DNA of 33,137 bases. It comes from Paenibacillus oceani. GTDB taxonomy: Bacteria; Bacillota; Bacilli; Paenibacillales; NBRC-103111. Where the stretch lies: contig NZ_JACXJA010000039.1 in assembly GCF_014705615.1 (NCBI RefSeq), positions 1-33,137 of the forward strand. Direction: 5' to 3'. This document shows, piece after piece, positions 25,146 through 32,679 of this stretch; the stretch's first letter is position 1; every line of letters begins with the position of its first letter. Below the pieces are notes generated by a model that saw only the letters and a list, made by a program, of their open reading frames with translations, did no database searches and was not told where the DNA came from. Both the position numbers and the translations under genes were made by a program.

Positions 25146-27224
25146 TCACCCGTCCGTCTCCGGCTTTTTTACGATCATTACCCCTTCCGCATGTTTGCGG
25201 CTCATCAGCTTACGCTTTTTCCGGTCTTCCTTCGATTCGAATACGATGTCCATATCGTAATCGTCAGGGTACAGCTCGCTTTTGGCGATATGCAAGGCGA
25301 GTCGTTTCCGGTTTATTCTAAACCGCTGCTTCTGGATCATAACGCCTACGTTCCCTCTCGCATCCTCCGCTTCGCAGACGATTCCGGTTTTGCCCAGATA
25401 AGCGATGAACACGCAGTCTCCGATCTCCAGCTTCGGAGCGGGGACAGCCCCTGCTTCATTCCGTCCTGAATCGCCTGAAGTCAGTCCCGCTCCTGTCCTT
25501 TCCTGTCGGCCTTGCTTCACGGGCCGATTGTCCTGCCGCTGTTCCTGCGGCTCTTCCTGAAGCTCCTCCAGCCGAACGCGCACCGGTTCCGGGTCAAGCT
25601 CCCGTTTCTGCTCCAGCTCCGTAAGGCGCGGATACTCCTGCTTTGCTCCGGTCCCCGGCTTCGCCAGTCGCGCCCCATCGGTAAAGTCCGCTCCACTCCC
25701 TCGTGCGGACGTTAATTGCTCCGAGCGCGAGATAATGCCCGCCGGTATTCCCAGCTTTTTGGCGATCAGAAATGCATAGCTCTGCCCCGCCTCTCCGATA
25801 CGCAGACGGTACAGCGGCTGCAGCGTCTCGGCGTCGAATTCCATCCGGGCGTTCTGGAATCCCGGAGTTTGTGAAGCAAAATGTTTGATTTCGTTGAAAT
25901 GCGTCGTAGCGACGACCGTAGCGCCCCTTTCGTGCAGCGCCTCCAGGATGGCGATCGACAGCCCGACTCCTTCCCCGGGGTCGGTTCCAGAAGCCAGCTC
26001 GTCGAGCAAGACGAGCGTCGAGCCGTCCGCTATATCCAAAATGCCGACCATATTCCGGATATGCGCCGAAAACGTGCTGAGCGACTGCTCGATGCTCTGG
26101 CCGTCCCCGATATCCGCCGCCACGTGGCGGAATACGGCAAGCTCGCTCCCTTCGCCCGCCGGTACGAGCAGACCGGATTGGGCCATCAGGGTGAGCAGAC
26201 CGACCGTTTTCAGAGCGATCGTTTTGCCTCCGGTATTTGGGCCGGTAATCACAAGCGACGAATACGATCTTCCGATCGTAAAATCGAGCGGGACCGTGCC
26301 GCCCCCGAGCAGCGGATGAACCGCGCTGTGCAGACGGATGAGGCCGCGGTCGTTCAGCCCGACGTTTCTGCCGTTGACGGCAAGCGCAAACTTTGCTTTG
26401 GCAAACAGGAAATCATACGTGCCGATCGCCTCTACATTCAGCTTCAGCTCATAATCGGCTTCTTCCACCAGTCCGGTCAGATCAGCGAGCACCTTCTCCT
26501 CCTCCCTCGCCTCCTCGGCGCGCAAACTTGCAAGCTCATGCTGCAGATGGGCGATCTCCTGAGGTTCGATATACACGGTTTGACCGCTGGACGACTCATC
26601 CAGCACGGAACCGGCTACAAGCTTCCGGTGCTCCTTCTTAATCGGCAGCACGTACCTGCCCGAACGGACGCTGAACAACTGTTCCTGCATAATCGAGCGG
26701 TGCCTGCTCATCAGCGCATCCATCCGTGCTTTGATTTTTTCCGCCACGGCGGCGATTTTCCGACGAGTTTTCAGCAAATCCCGGCTTGCCCCGTCGTCTA
26801 CTTGCCCGTTGCGGATACAGCGGTCGATCTCCCGCTTCAGCCCGGACAGCTCGTGCATCGAGCCCGCATACCCGGCGATGCGCGGAGCGACGGACGCTTT
26901 GGCGGCCATATACGTCTGGAGCTGGCCGCAGCCTTGCAAGAACAGCCGAATGTTCGCAAAGTCCTGTTCGTTAAACACATATCCCGTACCCGACAGCTGC
27001 AGCACCGTTTCGATTCCGCTTAGCGAGGGGATCGGCACGCTTGCGCCGTTATTCAGGATGGCCAGCGCCTCCGCCGTCTCGTCCAGCGCCGTTCGTACCG
27101 TCCGGAGTTCCGTCATCGGGCGCATCCCCTCCACATGCCGTTTCCCCAAGTACGAGACGGCATAGTCCGCCACTCGATTGACGACTTTATCGTATTCCAA
27201 TCTGTGCAGTGCATACTGATTCAC
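25146..27224 (-). CDS. MutS2-like ATPase lacking the Smr nuclease domain
   Basis: 692 residues from GTG at 27224 (GAGGAG upstream). Layout: N-terminal helical/core part (1-320), then the MutS ATPase with Walker A GPNTGGKT (328-335), signature SLSTFSAH (~381) and Walker B STLVLLDELASG (402-412), and TTHFNEIKHFA as the switch. A charged Q/E-rich linker (~545-610) and a KOW-like domain around GDCVFIAYLGKTG (~625) follow. The end is DYDMDIVFESKEDRKKRKLMSRKHAEGV. Canonical MutS2 (~785 residues) continues into a Smr domain with an LDLRG motif; here it is absent, and the chain ends in a different conserved-looking tail. Bacillus MutS2 acts on collided ribosomes and branched DNA; this paralogue's function is unknown. 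The 515-base upstream region holds a structured leader and two terminators. Confidence 0.88.
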   Translation of the reverse strand: MNQYALHRLEYDKVVNRVADYAVSYLGKRHVEGMRPMTELRTVRTALDETAEALAILNNGASVPIPSLSGIETVLQLSGTGYVFNEQDFANIRLFLQGCGQLQTYMAAKASVAPRIAGYAGSMHELSGLKREIDRCIRNGQVDDGASRDLLKTRRKIAAVAEKIKARMDALMSRHRSIMQEQLFSVRSGRYVLPIKKEHRKLVAGSVLDESSSGQTVYIEPQEIAHLQHELASLRAEEAREEEKVLADLTGLVEEADYELKLNVEAIGTYDFLFAKAKFALAVNGRNVGLNDRGLIRLHSAVHPLLGGGTVPLDFTIGRSYSSLVITGPNTGGKTIALKTVGLLTLMAQSGLLVPAGEGSELAVFRHVAADIGDGQSIEQSLSTFSAHIRNMVGILDIADGSTLVLLDELASGTDPGEGVGLSIAILEALHERGATVVATTHFNEIKHFASQTPGFQNARMEFDAETLQPLYRLRIGEAGQSYAFLIAKKLGIPAGIISRSEQLTSARGSGADFTDGARLAKPGTGAKQEYPRLTELEQKRELDPEPVRVRLEELQEEPQEQRQDNRPVKQGRQERTGAGLTSGDSGRNEAGAVPAPKLEIGDCVFIAYLGKTGIVCEAEDARGNVGVMIQKQRFRINRKRLALHIAKSELYPDDYDMDIVFESKEDRKKRKLMSRKHAEGVMIVKKPETDG

Positions 27225-27264
27225 ATTGATCGCTCCTCATCTTCTTTTGCTTCTTAAAGAGGTA

Positions 27265-27430
27265 GTTCAAACAAGCCCGCTCTTGATCACGAAGCAGCTC
27301 AGGAAGCCTGCTCGACATCGAATATGGATTCAGCCGGAACTTCCGGTGCTCACGTAGCCGCCACTACGCTCCGCTCCTCATTTCCTAGCTTCATCCCATC
27401 TTCTCGGTGCTGAAAACCGGACTTTTGAAC
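27265..27430. repeat. 166-bp imperfect inverted element in the MutS2-like 5' region
   Basis: The ends are inverted: plus GTTCAAACAAGCCCGCTCTT (27265-) against minus GTTCAAAAGTCCGGTTTTCA (27430-). Similarity continues into GATCACGAAG / GCACCGAGAAG. I recall similar GTTCAAA-ended units as dispersed intergenic sequences in Paenibacillus, but that is from memory only. Confidence 0.45.
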
Positions 27431-27442
27431 TCGCACTTAAAC

Positions 27443-27488
27443 AAAAAAAGGAAGGCCAAGAATGAGCATAGTCATTCTTGCCTTCCTC
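27443..27488 (-). terminator. Second intrinsic terminator upstream of the MutS2-like gene
   Basis: On the minus strand AGGAAGGCAAGAATGA, six bases, TCATTCTTGGCCTTCCT and a run of seven T form a very stable hairpin 220 bases before the start codon. Confidence 0.85.
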
Positions 27489-27516
27489 GTCCTTATCCGC
27501 GTTTGCCAAATACAAT

Positions 27517-27544
27517 AAAAAAACCGTGCTCAAAGACAGCACGG
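27517..27544 (-). terminator. First intrinsic terminator of the structured leader
   Basis: CCGTGCT, seven bases, AGCACGG, then seven T on the minus strand, about 200 nt from the predicted transcription start. Confidence 0.9.
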
Positions 27545-27692
27545 ATCGGCGCGTAGATAAAGGTATCTAGGGCAATGATGATATCCGCTGTTCTTAACTA
27601 CATTCCGAGGCTCGCTGGCAGGCATAGGAAATAAACGTCCTGTTTTGGACAGGCCATTCTCCTCGCGCTTCAACGCCTCTTATGGAATTAAA

Positions 27693-27716
27693 TTAGTTAA
27701 GAACGTTCACCGACAT
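27693..27716 (-). CDS. Seven-codon upstream ORF (MSVNVLN) in the leader
   Basis: ATG at 27716 lies six bases after GGGAGAG (27729-27723); seven codons end in TAA at 27693. Its last three codons and stop coincide with the 5' arm of the leader's 11-bp helix. A ribosome translating or stalling here would therefore prevent that helix from forming. The size, position and ribosome site are those of regulatory leader peptides in Firmicutes antibiotic-response genes. Translation is inferred. Confidence 0.5.
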   Translation of the reverse strand: MSVNVLN

Positions 27717-27746
27717 CAAAATCTCTCCCAGTACAAAGATACTACA

Positions 27747-27775
27747 ATTATATAAATCTCCCGGCCCGGCGTCAA
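27747..27775 (-). promoter_or_regulatory. Strong sigma-A promoter of the leader RNA
   Basis: Minus-strand TTGACG (27770-27775), a 17-base spacer and TATAAT (27747-27752). It is one of the best consensus promoters in the window. Confidence 0.88.
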
Positions 27776-27850
27776 GCCCGGAGTTGGTTCGGACTTCCCG
27801 CCCTCGCCCGACTTTCCGGAATCGGGTACAATGGAATTCGACAGAAACTA

Positions 27851-27882
27851 TTGACCTTGACATCTGTGTCAAGGTTTATACT
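27851..27882 (+). promoter_or_regulatory. MerR-type promoter with perfect dyad operator
   Basis: -35 TTGACC (27851-27856) and -10 TATACT (27877-27882) are 20 bases apart, the overlong spacing typical of MerR-activated promoters. The perfect palindrome CCTTGACA-TCTG-TGTCAAGG (27855-27874) fills the spacer. The MerR gene downstream is the obvious binding partner. Confidence 0.8.
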
Positions 27883-27933
27883 GATCTTGAAACCGTTATT
27901 CAGATCGGAGTAAGCAGGGGGGAGGGTGCATCG

Positions 27934-28350
27934 ATGAGAATCGGAGAACTAGCCAGTATAACCGGCGCCAGCCTTCGCTCGCTGCGCTATTATGAGCAGC
28001 AAAAGCTGATAAGCCCGGTACGTTCGGACAACGGATACCGGGAATACAGCCCTTTCGCTGTCGAACAGGTCGAGACGATCCGGTTTTATATCAGCCTCGG
28101 CTTCACGACCGAACAAATCGCCGGCTTTTTGCACTGTGTGATGCAAAATAAAGAAGCGTTCTGCCGGGACGTTCTGCCCGTATACGAAACGAAAATCGCC
28201 GAGCTAGACCAGCAGATCCAGTTGCTTTCGCGGATCAAATCCAATCTGGAGGAACGGGTCCGGGCGATGCTAGACGAGCGGGAGCAGGATGCGGACTACG
28301 ACGTAATCCAGCCGCCACCGGAAGCCGGCCGCGCTCCGTCCGGCGGGTGA
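27934..28350 (+). CDS. MerR-family transcriptional regulator
   Basis: 138 residues from ATG at 27934 (GGGGGGAGGG upstream). The winged helix-turn-helix is MRIGELASITGASLRSLRYYEQQKLISPVRSDNGYREYS (residues 1-39), with the RYYE motif of the family, then the dimerisation coiled coil (~75-115: YETKIAELDQQIQLLSRIKSNLEERV). A single Cys (~65) and no Cys cluster near the C-terminus argue against a classical metal sensor. A dyad in its own overlong promoter implies autoregulation. No target gene lies immediately downstream; a terminator follows at 28365-28404. Confidence 0.9.
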   Translation: MRIGELASITGASLRSLRYYEQQKLISPVRSDNGYREYSPFAVEQVETIRFYISLGFTTEQIAGFLHCVMQNKEAFCRDVLPVYETKIAELDQQIQLLSRIKSNLEERVRAMLDEREQDADYDVIQPPPEAGRAPSGG

Positions 28351-28364
28351 AGCGCATATAATCG

Positions 28365-28404
28365 AACCTTCAGCCCCTTCGATCGCGGGGTTGAAGGTTT
28401 TTTT
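28365..28404 (+). terminator. Rho-independent terminator after the MerR gene
   Basis: AACCTTCAGCCCC, eight bases, GGGGTTGAAGGTT and seven T. Between this and the germination operon at 28693 lies only MITE copy 2. Confidence 0.88.
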
Positions 28405-28445
28405 GTACGATTTTGCGGAACGTTCAAGAGCTAAAGCTTTATTCG

Positions 28446-28634
28446 AGGCTGTCGATTCATTGAGTAGAAGTGATAGCAGGGCTTTCCAAGTGAAAAGTTA
28501 CCTTCTTCTGCTCAAACAGGTTGTCCGGAATCCCTTGATTGAATAAGGATTGTACGGTAGGGGATTCCAGACAAACTCGCCAGAAGGTCATCTTTTCCCT
28601 TTCCACCTGGTTGTCCACATTGAATCGACAGCCT
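28446..28634 (-). mobile_element. MITE-like hairpin element, copy 2, with 7-bp target duplication
   Basis: 189 bp with the same terminal inverted repeats (AGGCTGTCGATTCA) as copy 1, in opposite orientation. TTATTCG is repeated exactly on both sides (28439-28445 and 28635-28641), the footprint of a transposition event. It is inserted between the MerR terminator and the germination operon, ~60 bases upstream of the first ger start, so it may affect that operon's promoter. A 267-base open frame crosses it but is not preserved in copy 1. Confidence 0.9.
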
Positions 28635-28692
28635 TTATTCGTCGTATATTTTTCCTGCAATGGGAAACCTAATGAAACGAGGTGACCGCAGG

Positions 28693-30378
28693 ATGAGCTA
28701 CAAGTTTCGACAGCCGATTGCATTGTCGGACCTATTAAAGCGCCGGGCCAAACGATTTCAGGCCGAATTGGACAGCCGTTACGAGAAAAGCGTATCCGCC
28801 TACGAACATCTTCCCCTGACCGGTGATCTGGACACGAACGTGGAGGCGGTACGTTCGATTTTTGGCAACAGCAGCGATTTAGTCATACGCCGTTTTCTGG
28901 TGGCCAAAGGGAAGCTGCAAGCCGCCGTCATTTTTTTCGACGGACTGACCAACACGGAAACCATTAACGAGAATATTATACAGCCGCTTATGGCTGCAGG
29001 CAGCCTGCCCGATTCGGAAAGCGCGCTTTCGTCATCCACCGACTGGCTGGACAAAACCGGAATCCCCATTGGCGAACTGCATCATACGGACCGGCTGAAC
29101 AGAGTAATCCGCACGATCCTGTCCGGCGATTCGGTTCTGCTGCTGGAAGGCTCGGACACGGCGATTCTGCTTAACTCCAAAGGCTGGGAAAGGCGCGGGA
29201 TCGACGAGCCTCGTACCGAATCGGTCGTACGGGGGCCAAGGGACGGATTCACGGAAACGTTATGCATCAATACGGCCCTGATCCGCCGAAGATTAAGAGA
29301 TCCGAATCTCCGCATCCAGTACATCACGGTCGGCCGGCGGTCGAACACCGATGTAGCAGTCGTCCATGTGGAAGGACTTACGAACCCGCAAATCGTGGAA
29401 GAAGTGGTGACCCGGATTCGAGCCATCGACATCGACGCCGCCCTGGAAAGCGGATATTTGGAGCAGGTGATCGAGGACAGCCACTGGACTCCCTTCCCGC
29501 TCATTCAGAACACGGAAAGACCGGACAAAGCGACGGCCAACCTGCTTGAGGGCAAAGTGATCGTTATTTGTGACGGGACCCCTTTCGTCCTGATCGCCCC
29601 GGCCGTATTCGCACAGTTTTATCACAGTCCGGAAGATTATTACGAACGGTTTCTGATCGGCACGTTAATCCGGCTGATCCGCGTAGTCAGCATGGCGATG
29701 GCGCTGCTGCTGCCCTCGCTCTACATCGCCTTCAGCTCGTTCCATCCGGAGATGATCCCTTCCCGGCTCGTTATCGCGATGGCGGCGGGACGATCGACCG
29801 TTCCTTTCCCATCGATCGTAGAAGCGTTCCTGATGGAGGTTACGATGGAAATATTGCGGGAAGCGAGCGTCCGGCTCCCCGGGCCGATCGGTCCGACCAT
29901 CGGAATCGTCGGAGCGCTGGTTGTCGGACAAGCGGCGGTTCAAGCCGGTATCGTCAGTCCGATCATGGTCATCATCGTTGCGCTGACGACGATCGGATCG
30001 TTCGCGGCACCGAGCTACAGCGCGGCGATTGCACTACGGATGCTCCGGTTTCCGATGATGGTCGCAGCGGCGTTTTTCGGGCTGTACGGCATTATGCTGC
30101 TGCTCATCTTAATCATCATTCACCTGTGCTCGCTGAAATCGTTTGGCGTCCCGTATTTGGCTCCTCTGACTCCCAGCCGGTTCGGAGATTTGAAAGACAC
30201 CTTCCTGCGGGCGCCGTTCCAGTGGATGACGATGAGACCTACTATTTTCAAACCGAAGGACAAACGGCGCGCTTCGCGCAATGCCAGAGAGGCGGGAGGC
30301 GGGCAGCATGGTTCGGACAACCGGCAGCAGCACGGGCAGCGGTACTCGGACAACGGAGGACCGGAACAAGCCCGATAA
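28693..30378 (+). CDS. Spore germination protein, GerA family (A subunit of a germinant receptor)
   Basis: 561 residues from ATG at 28693, eight bases after GAGGTG. The large hydrophilic N-terminal domain (~1-310) carries the family motifs NSSDLVIRRF, DGLTNTETINENIIQPLM and VLLLEGSDTAILLNSKGWERRGIDEPRTESVVRGPRDGFTE. About five membrane helices follow (~325-515), including the conserved REA-x-RLPGPIGPTIGIVGALVVGQAAV. The C-terminus is charged. The A subunit sits in the spore inner membrane and with B and C forms a receptor for small nutrients. The 3' end overlaps the B gene by 71 bases. The receptor's germinant cannot be read from sequence. Confidence 0.95.
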   Translation: MSYKFRQPIALSDLLKRRAKRFQAELDSRYEKSVSAYEHLPLTGDLDTNVEAVRSIFGNSSDLVIRRFLVAKGKLQAAVIFFDGLTNTETINENIIQPLMAAGSLPDSESALSSSTDWLDKTGIPIGELHHTDRLNRVIRTILSGDSVLLLEGSDTAILLNSKGWERRGIDEPRTESVVRGPRDGFTETLCINTALIRRRLRDPNLRIQYITVGRRSNTDVAVVHVEGLTNPQIVEEVVTRIRAIDIDAALESGYLEQVIEDSHWTPFPLIQNTERPDKATANLLEGKVIVICDGTPFVLIAPAVFAQFYHSPEDYYERFLIGTLIRLIRVVSMAMALLLPSLYIAFSSFHPEMIPSRLVIAMAAGRSTVPFPSIVEAFLMEVTMEILREASVRLPGPIGPTIGIVGALVVGQAAVQAGIVSPIMVIIVALTTIGSFAAPSYSAAIALRMLRFPMMVAAAFFGLYGIMLLLILIIIHLCSLKSFGVPYLAPLTPSRFGDLKDTFLRAPFQWMTMRPTIFKPKDKRRASRNAREAGGGQHGSDNRQQHGQRYSDNGGPEQAR

Positions 30379-31531
30379 ACCTTATCTGATCACGATCCGG
30401 CAATCGAGCGCCATGATTGCCAGCGGTCTGATCGGCGTAGGAGTGTTGACACTGACCCGGAAAACGGCGGAGTCGGCGGGAGAAAGCGGATGGATCGTGG
30501 CGATCGGCGGGACGATGCTGGCACTGGCTGTCATTATCAAGCTTTCCAACCGCCACCCGGGTCAGACGATCGTTGAGTATGCGTCCCGCCTGCTCGGTCC
30601 CCGTCGCTATCCGCTGATCGGCCGGATTGTAGGCTTCCCGCTGTTCCTCGCCTTTTTTTTGTTTTGGGCCACCTCGACGGCATTGGTCGCCCGCACGTTT
30701 GGGGATGTCGTCGTCACCACCGTGTTGACCCGGACGCCTTTGGAAGTGGTCATCGCAACGATGCTGATCACGTCGTTTATTTACGTCATGTATGACGAGG
30801 GAGTGGTCGCCCGCGTCAACGAAATCTTATTGCCGATCATCGTCATCCCGGTGCTCGTCATCGCTTTATCTTCTTTTCAAAGCGCGAGAATCGATAACCT
30901 CCTGCCAGTGTTCGACGGAAACTGGGCAGGCTTGATGAAAGGGATTTTCTATACGGCAAGCTCGTATCTCGGCTTCGAGATCATGACGATCTTTTTCGCC
31001 GATACGAAACAAGGCAGCAAGCGGATGACCGGCGGGATGGTCGGTGTCGCCATACCCGGCTTGATTTATGTGCTGATTGTCATCTCCAGTATTTCCGTAT
31101 TCGGGGTGGAGGAAATCCGTCTTCTGGCCTGGCCGACTCTGGAGCTGGTCAAAACAAGCGAGGTTCCCGGCTTCATCCTGGAACGGCTGGAATCTGCGTT
31201 TCTCGGCGTATGGGTGGCGGCCGTTTTCACGACGGTAGGCAACATGTACTATGCGACTGCGGCCATCGCCCGGCGTACATTTAAGCTGAAAAGCCACCGT
31301 TGGATCGCTTTGTTCTTGCTTCCCGCTTACTATTGGTTTTCCCTGGTTCCGCAGAACGGGGAAATGCTGCTCCAATATTCGCGGTTTATTAGCAACGGGG
31401 GGATGATTATCGCCTATTGCGTGCCCGTACTGCTGCTGTTCCTGTCCTTCGCCAAAGGGGGACGCAAGCGGGAAGGACAAACTCAGTCCGGCCAAGCCCT
31501 ATCGGATCAAAAGGAGGCATCGACCACGTGA
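30308..31531 (+). CDS. Spore germination permease-like protein, GerB family (B subunit)
   Basis: 407 residues from ATG at 30308, which has GGGAGG upstream, inside the 3' end of the A gene. About ten membrane helices in the amino-acid/polyamine/organocation transporter fold run from LITIRQSSAMIASGLIGVGVLTLTR to GGMIIAYCVPVLLLFLSF. Members bind amino-acid-like germinants in the spore inner membrane. The start ATG at 30281 in the same frame has no ribosome site. Its stop overlaps the GTG start of the C gene (GTGA). Confidence 0.93.
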   Translation: MVRTTGSSTGSGTRTTEDRNKPDKPYLITIRQSSAMIASGLIGVGVLTLTRKTAESAGESGWIVAIGGTMLALAVIIKLSNRHPGQTIVEYASRLLGPRRYPLIGRIVGFPLFLAFFLFWATSTALVARTFGDVVVTTVLTRTPLEVVIATMLITSFIYVMYDEGVVARVNEILLPIIVIPVLVIALSSFQSARIDNLLPVFDGNWAGLMKGIFYTASSYLGFEIMTIFFADTKQGSKRMTGGMVGVAIPGLIYVLIVISSISVFGVEEIRLLAWPTLELVKTSEVPGFILERLESAFLGVWVAAVFTTVGNMYYATAAIARRTFKLKSHRWIALFLLPAYYWFSLVPQNGEMLLQYSRFISNGGMIIAYCVPVLLLFLSFAKGGRKREGQTQSGQALSDQKEASTT

Positions 31532-32679
31532 ACCGCACTCGCTTATGCATGATGACACTGCTGTCCGTTATGCTGATCACGGCCTTGCTGTTATCCGGCT
31601 GCTGGGATCGCCGTGAAATCGAGGAACGTACCTCCGTCGTCGCCATTGCGATCGATAAGCCGAAGGACCGTCCGGATATGATTTTACTGACCGTCCAAAT
31701 CCCCATCCCGATCCGGATCGCCGGTTCCGGCACGGGCAGCGGAGGCGGGGACGGCACCAATTCGGTTGAAGTGATGTCCGCTATGGGAAGGACTGTCGTC
31801 GATGCCTTTGAAAATTTGCAAAAACGGTTAAACCAGCAGCTGTTTTATGGACATACCCGTGTCATCGCGATCGGCGAAGAAGTGGCCAAGTCGGGACTTG
31901 TCTCGATTCTCGACCCGTTCCGGCGCGACCCACAAATACGCCGGCTTCTGTGGCCGATCGTCGTCAAAGGAGAAGGCCGAAATCTGCTGACCGCCACTCC
32001 CACGCTCGAGCAGATTCCGACCGTATTCATTATGACGATGATCGAAAACGGGACGCGCAGCGGACGCATTCCGGAAGTGAACTTGGGCACGTTTTTCGTC
32101 GATCTCTCTTCGGTGTCGAGGGAACCTTATTTGAACTATGTCGAGGTAAACGGCAAAGACATCAAATGGAGCGGCGTCGCTATTTTCCATGACGACCGGA
32201 TGGTCGGCAGACTGAGTGAACGGGAAACGTGGCGGCTGATGCGAATCCGGGAGAAAAGTGACGGAGGCAACATCATTTTTCCTTTCGAAGGAAATCCGAA
32301 GCAGCTCGCGACGATTAATACCGAATTTGTCGAGAGCAAAAAAAAGATTACGTTTAAGGGCGATCAAGTCATCGTACGGATCTATGTCTCTATCGAGAGC
32401 AATTTGCTGGAGAAAACGTTTGAAACCGACTTGTTCAACCCGCAAACGATAAAACAGCTGGAGCAGGACGCCACCGCTTATTTGGAGAAATATACAGCTG
32501 ATCTCGTTCACAAATTACAGCATCAGTTTCGCACCGACGCGTTCGGCATCGGCAGCCACATTAAAGCGTATCACAATGCAAAATGGAAAAGTATGGATTG
32601 GAACAGACAGTTCCCCGAAGCGGACATCAAAGTGTTCTACGACGTAAAACTGCGCAACAGCGGAATGGGGATGCGGTAA
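31528..32679 (+). CDS. Spore germination lipoprotein, Ger(x)C family (C subunit)
   Basis: 383 residues from GTG at 31528, which has GGAGG ten bases upstream and overlaps the B stop by four bases. The signal peptide ends in the lipobox LLSGC, followed at once by WDRREIEE, the family hallmark. Further conserved segments are YGHTRVIAIGEEVAKSGL and DPQIRRLLWPIVVKGEGRN in the N-terminal domain, and WSGVAIFHDDRMVGRLSE in the middle. A C-terminal Ger(x)C domain (~210-375) ends with AYHNAKWKSMDWN. The protein is lipid-anchored on the outer face of the spore inner membrane and completes the A-B-C receptor. Confidence 0.95.
   Translation: MNRTRLCMMTLLSVMLITALLLSGCWDRREIEERTSVVAIAIDKPKDRPDMILLTVQIPIPIRIAGSGTGSGGGDGTNSVEVMSAMGRTVVDAFENLQKRLNQQLFYGHTRVIAIGEEVAKSGLVSILDPFRRDPQIRRLLWPIVVKGEGRNLLTATPTLEQIPTVFIMTMIENGTRSGRIPEVNLGTFFVDLSSVSREPYLNYVEVNGKDIKWSGVAIFHDDRMVGRLSERETWRLMRIREKSDGGNIIFPFEGNPKQLATINTEFVESKKKITFKGDQVIVRIYVSIESNLLEKTFETDLFNPQTIKQLEQDATAYLEKYTADLVHKLQHQFRTDAFGIGSHIKAYHNAKWKSMDWNRQFPEADIKVFYDVKLRNSGMGMR

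Follow-up and report, generated by a model that had tools for sequence, protein, structure and literature searches.

A conserved leader with a seven-codon upstream open reading frame, probably a ribosome-mediated transcription attenuator, precedes a MutS2-like gene in Paenibacillus oceani and other Bacilli

In Paenibacillus oceani a gene for a MutS2-like protein (25146-27224, minus strand) lies behind a long, structured leader, and we sought to elucidate how this leader might control it. The window, that is the whole stretch of DNA analysed, comprises 33,137 nucleotides (positions 1 to 33,137 of contig NZ_JACXJA010000039.1), and all named leader elements lie on its minus strand at 27775-27443, 5′ of the gene. 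A preliminary description made from the letters alone had proposed a near-consensus promoter, a tiny ORF with a ribosome site, a rod-like RNA and two terminators, arranged as a ribosome-sensing attenuator. The promoter (27747-27775, with the -35 element TTGACG at 27775-27770, the -10 element TATAAT at 27752-27747 and a spacer of 17) matches the consensus at 11 of 12 positions and is the sole consensus promoter within 26800-28300; transcription would start near 27740. The match by itself is little proof, since the same scan yields consensus promoters in shuffled sequence as well (mean 1.0). Its place is kept among the homologous leaders described below, where the corresponding position scores at least 9/12 in 127 of 144 rows, versus 4 of 144 in a control stretch.

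The leader matches all four genus mates, each time beside a MutS2-like gene, and one mate carries a second copy before a BpsA_C gene. A first covariance model, built from these six leaders (the window, the four mates and the second copy), gave 65 matches, distributed over 56 of 104 family genomes. A second model, built from 64 of the 65 family matches, located the leader in 303 of 392 genomes of the order and in 77 of 398 of the class; 42 of these 77 belong outside the order, one of them (G627) being probably false. All 65 family matches and 79 leaders chosen from the longer order and class lists make up the 144 rows examined in detail. They represent 143 places, as the leader of G136 appears twice (L114 and L173), so that one ATG uORF and one MutS2-like gene are counted twice in the raw totals and once in the distinct ones. 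L094, whose locus is cut by a contig end, and L145, a 28-bit match without uORF or arm that was taken as false, were excluded before these counts, and L091 and L092 repeat L058 and L060. The genome of the window itself holds a second family member (L071, contig C39, 70061-70205, minus strand) with the uORF MSASVLN-stop before a BpsA-like gene.

Folding of the transcript gave a long rod, near 220 nt in length, with an 11-bp helix at its core (z = -4.1 against dinucleotide shuffles through terminator 1, z = -6.4 with both terminators). Such a shape and length would also suit a stand-alone 6S-like small RNA that ends at the terminators and adjoins the gene by chance. Against this, in 143 of the 144 rows the leader stands before one of four types of gene, the next gene being MutS2-like in 103, BpsA-like in 34, GNAT in five and APH-like in one, with none in the remaining row (L069); moreover, the uORF and the antiterminator pairing are conserved. 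6S RNA (RF00013) was rejected, since the 6S RNA of this genome lies on contig C37 and the window contains no match to the family at cut-off. In agreement with the preliminary description, which had assigned the RNA to no known class, no Rfam 15 family reaches its cut-off in the window or in 40 fetched homologous loci apart from one tRNA, and the eight sub-threshold matches are all far below the cut-offs of their families. We therefore consider a free-standing small RNA very improbable.

The uORF (MSVNVLN, 27693-27716) is preceded by the Shine-Dalgarno sequence GGGAG at 27729-27725. Its start codon lies exactly 12 nt before the helix arm GTTCTTAAC in 139 of 144 rows (ATG 133, TTG 4, GTG 2), and codon 8 is the stop in 117 of the 124 distinct uORFs (TAA 101, TAG 12, TGA 4); six of the other seven stop at codon 9 and one reaches 12 codons. 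Among the five rows without a standard start, L136-L138 are compatible with a uORF of one extra codon that retains the VLN-stop end, and L087 and L088, both GNAT leaders, have no normal uORF. Conservation of this ORF had been put forward as a check, and the conserved place, length, start and stop make it look translated.

Position 4 of the peptide is free, while positions 5, 6 and 7 are Val, Leu and Asn in 123, 122 and 120 of the 124 distinct uORFs, respectively. Since the letters of these positions also form the helix, constraint on the peptide and constraint on the RNA are not fully separable. The conserved Val, Leu and Asn codons could point to a classic amino-acid attenuator sensing the uncharged tRNA for one of them, but there is no run of one codon, position 4 varies freely and amino-acid biosynthesis genes account for none of the four target types. 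With codon run and biosynthesis gene both absent, the leader was not placed among the amino-acid leader-peptide attenuators, and we regard such sensing as scarcely credible here. The conserved Val-Leu-Asn-stop could instead pause the ribosome at the stop codon, so that the leader would read peptide release or ribosome recycling, not elongation generally, and the sensed step would be one that a MutS2-like splitter could relieve. L136-L138, which keep VLN-stop with a CTG codon and in two cases also with an AAT codon, speak for such a sensor, as does the finding that a ribosome placed at the last uORF codon in silico also removes the helix. The same letters form the helix, however, so RNA pairing explains VLN too; in L182 Asn is replaced by Ile together with a change in the partner strand, and VLS, VFN and uORFs with one extra codon before the stop also occur. 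We thus find a sensor of slow termination unlikely, if appreciably less so than amino-acid sensing.

The 11-bp helix, P1, joins the end of the uORF to a strand made about 100 nt later, as the preliminary description had proposed: its 5′ arm (27704-27694, codons 5-8 of the uORF), a putative anti-antiterminator, pairs with the 3′ arm at 27600-27590, as judged from folding and comparison of arm pairs. Standard pairs fill 95.8% of the cells (11 pairs in 117 distinct arm pairs) versus 24-48% in slid registers, and 15 cells are changed on both sides versus 3-11 in slid registers; most of the pairs are uninformative because P1 hardly varies. In three of the four leaders with a TGA stop (L068, L073 and L169, but not L077) the 3′ arm has changed to match, which indicates that stop codon and helix are kept together. 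One leader, L089, is without a 3′ arm. Behind the stop codon, the first part of the motif AATTCCATA (27681-27689) pairs with 27606-27602 to form a second helix, P2, and in the cognate test, which compares each leader's own partner with those of other leaders, this motif was specific for the strand that precedes the 3′ arm (z -6.9, a value inflated by the kinship of the sequences). Lower P1, between the start region and the antiterminator segment AT1, gave no cognate signal (z -1.2). A loose form of the post-stop motif, AATTYCATA, is present in 136 of 144 rows, and pairing accounts for its first part only.

Two terminators with T tracts stand before the gene, as had been described: terminator 1 at 27517-27544 (stem 27544-27524) and terminator 2 at 27443-27487 (stem 27487-27449), the sequence of the latter being conserved among homologues. 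The search for them took in 142 leaders, L069 and L089 being excluded; no terminator 1 turned up in 4 of these 142, and no terminator 2 in 25 of 138. Directly behind the 3′ arm of P1 lies AT1 (27583-27591), which can pair with 27546-27536, the 5′ arm of terminator 1. When the 16 nt after the 3′ arm were paired with the terminator 1 arm of the same leader, the mean was -7.64, versus -6.60 (sd 0.15) for permuted pairs, and none of 10,000 permutations reached the cognate value (122 of the 142 leaders, giving 96 distinct pairs; the other 20 were excluded because the terminator was absent or unusually spaced). When each of the 44 cores was represented by a single row, 3 of 10,000 permutations did so. 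The stretches before and behind the AT1 region showed no such cognate effect with terminator 1, that of the P1 arm reaching about 2 sd.

A second segment, AT2 (27571-27581), may act in the same manner on 27482-27472, the 5′ arm of terminator 2. Compared with shuffled arms, this pairing gave z -9.6 in mutS2 leaders and -3.9 in bpsA leaders, values that, like all those from the cognate and shuffled-arm tests, are inflated by related sequences among the rows. The two segments appear matched to their terminators, as in the shuffled-arm test AT1 shows no fit to terminator 2 (z 0.1 and -1.1), nor AT2 to terminator 1. In the cognate test the AT2 pairing is weak (z -2.0) because both sequences are conserved, and AT2 therefore stays a proposal. 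Terminator 2 gave no cognate pairing signal with the uORF region, the 3′ arm of terminator 1 or the post-stop motif. Its sequence (GGGCAGAGAATGAC..GTTCATTCT in many leaders) is kept across mutS2, bpsA and GNAT leaders, which is more than a plain terminator needs.

To the extent that folding in silico reflects the nascent RNA, a ribosome on the uORF would decide between these structures. Masking the uORF as a ribosome would lowered P1 from 0.99 to 0-0.03, and, at the stage where terminator 1 is still half made, AT1 then occupied the terminator arm with a share of 0.52-0.60. In the finished transcript terminator 1 mostly won back its arm (AT1 0.02-0.27), and the order of folding must therefore matter.

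Sequence comparison thus supports the uORF, P1, P2, AT1, the terminators and the association with the genes, and from it we infer readthrough, the inducer, the function of the protein and the role of AT2. The competing antiterminator pairing and the kinds of genes controlled favour the leader-peptide attenuation suggested earlier, and we consider it quite likely that the leader is a ribosome-mediated transcription attenuator, in which ribosomes stuck on the seven-codon uORF probably turn the MutS2-like gene on. RNA polymerase would start near 27740 and a ribosome would load onto the uORF. A fast ribosome would finish and leave, whereupon the end of the uORF could pair with the later strand in P1 and the terminators would stop transcription. 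A slow or stuck ribosome would cover the 5′ arm of P1 and leave the strand 27591-27571 free, so that AT1 could bind the 5′ arm of the first terminator and AT2 may do likewise with the second, which would allow the MutS2-like gene to be transcribed. The likely inducers would be ribosome-targeting antibiotics or other causes of slow elongation.

Attenuators of this kind are known, and the comparisons that follow draw on part of each cited report. The vmlR leader of Bacillus subtilis likewise has a uORF inside an anti-antiterminator, a competing antiterminator and an intrinsic terminator, and its downstream gene likewise encodes a translation-related ATPase; it differs in its uORF (Met-Ile-Asn), in having one terminator together with a hairpin that sequesters the SD sequence, and in its ABCF target (PMC9226507). 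The hflXr leader rli80 of Listeria monocytogenes shares transcription attenuation, a small ORF and a ribosome-splitter resistance paralogue with a housekeeping homologue elsewhere, but its uORF has 14 amino acids with an RLR motif and its target is HflX, not MutS2 (PMC6310831). Two features of this kind of attenuator recur here: a uORF with an SD sequence and with conserved start, stop and length, and a helix overlapping the uORF that, by comparison and masked folding, excludes AT1 against terminator 1. The uORFC-6-1 motif upstream of hflX in Bacillales is also a candidate uORF attenuator before a ribosome-rescue gene; there Arg-Leu-Arg is conserved in the peptide and the structure lies wholly downstream of the start codon, whereas the present leader has MSxxVLN and its uORF inside the helix (PMC8632094). 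With MSxxVLN instead of RLR and no hflX among the four target types, the leader was not assigned to that motif. The cplR, vmlR2 and lsaA leaders likewise place short conserved uORFs before translation-related resistance genes, with the different uORFs MR[I/M], MK[L/Q] and MAGN and with ABCF targets (PMC10201436). In Escherichia coli one uORF, toiL, answers several classes of ribosome inhibitors, but it acts on translation and Rho-dependent termination and has a toxin-antitoxin target (PMC12121999). In the literature on MutS2 with a leader peptide, uORF, attenuation or resistance paralogue, whose subscription papers were covered incompletely, no such leader was found, and MutS2 is absent from the main text of two earlier surveys, of attenuators and of ncRNAs. 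The leaders apparently form a real, conserved and undescribed attenuator family of a known kind, that of vmlR and hflXr, whose novelty lies in sequence, targets and perhaps the control of two terminators.

Between terminator 2 and the gene, the segment 27436-27259 is a mobile, MITE-like repeat of about 178 bp and not part of the leader, flanked by TTTAA at 27441-27437 and 27258-27254. The preliminary description had counted it as leader without recognising it; the leader elements down to 27443 stand. When the leader was searched by BLAST within its own genome, 47 matches appeared: its own locus, 44 nearly complete repeats with 87-94% identity and two incomplete ones. Matching AT-rich flanks of 5-6 bp were seen by eye in 7 of 10 distinct copies compared. 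The repeat lies outside the leader part that matches in the four genus mates, in which BLAST returned no long matches resembling the full-length repeat. The distance from the modelled part of the leader to the gene is 163-190 nt in 10 of the 12 MutS2-like rows listed and 274 in one; in the window it is 353, an excess of about the length of the repeat. Such an insertion could have uncoupled the gene from its leader in this strain, for example by a promoter inside the repeat. In a scan for consensus-type promoters, none was found in 27225-27443, nor, to that extent, the separate gene promoter below 27443 that would have spoken against attenuation, and the leader itself is intact; we consider uncoupling improbable. 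As a separate observation, the repeat has inverted ends and AT-rich target duplications, and some of its at least 44 further near-full copies are in tandem.

The product of the MutS2-like gene, which had been recognised as a MutS2 relative, has 692 amino acids with the core and ATPase parts (TIGR01069, 601 bits; cut-off 400) and is 40% identical over 501 amino acids to the full-length MutS2 of the same genome. No Smr or MSSS match was found in it (P0001), whereas the full-length MutS2 has both; the two domains are also absent in all eight further members tested. Visual inspection points to a possible KOW-like stretch around residue 600. A MutS2-like gene with an E-value of 1e-120 or lower occurs in 55 of 103 family genomes. 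Each of the 51 that score 430 bits or more is accompanied by a leader match (established for 49 by eye from the coordinates and for two by a separate check), that of G067 being degenerate; the four more distant genes (408-414 bits) have no leader match above 7.4 bits. According to the part of the report considered here, MutS2 of B. subtilis splits collided ribosomes, its absence sensitises the cells to chloramphenicol, tetracycline and erythromycin, and survival on erythromycin depends on its ATPase more than on KOW or Smr (PMC10897456). By analogy, an Smr-less MutS2 paralogue with this predicted activity would make sense under drug control, and this protein probably relates to the ribosome splitter MutS2 as HflXr does to HflX, namely as a paralogue reserved for stress.

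Close copies of the leader before four kinds of gene in many Bacilli suggest a single, hitherto unrecognised response to a block in protein synthesis. Whether they amount to a single unnamed attenuator class that spans several Bacilli families as a translation-stress regulon seems to us evenly balanced. Such a regulon would comprise the Smr-less MutS2, a BpsA-like aminopropyl-/methyltransferase, a GNAT protein and an APH-like kinase as intrinsic factors against ribosome inhibitors, with a fixed seven-codon sensor uORF and one bipartite strand disarming two tandem terminators, and it would separate ribosome splitting by MutS2 from the recognition of collisions by Smr. A widespread RNA element absent from Rfam 15 would then predict a response of four gene families to blocked ribosomes. 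It would also offer a concrete candidate for a stress-only ribosome splitter, comparable to HflXr, and an architecture whose single strand seems to govern both tandem terminators.

Some copies are decaying: MutS2-like frames carry internal stops in G058, G060 and G088, a frame is split in L079, and the leader without a 3′ arm (L089) and that without a target gene (L069) belong here too. In L063, two opposite-strand transposase-like frames, recognised by eye, lie at about 789-2153 in leader orientation between the leader and a GNAT gene about 1.8 kb off. Divergently from the present leader, the plus strand at 27784-32679 encodes a MerR-type regulator followed by an operon for spore germination, whose genes are of the GerXA-, permease- and Ger(x)C-like types.
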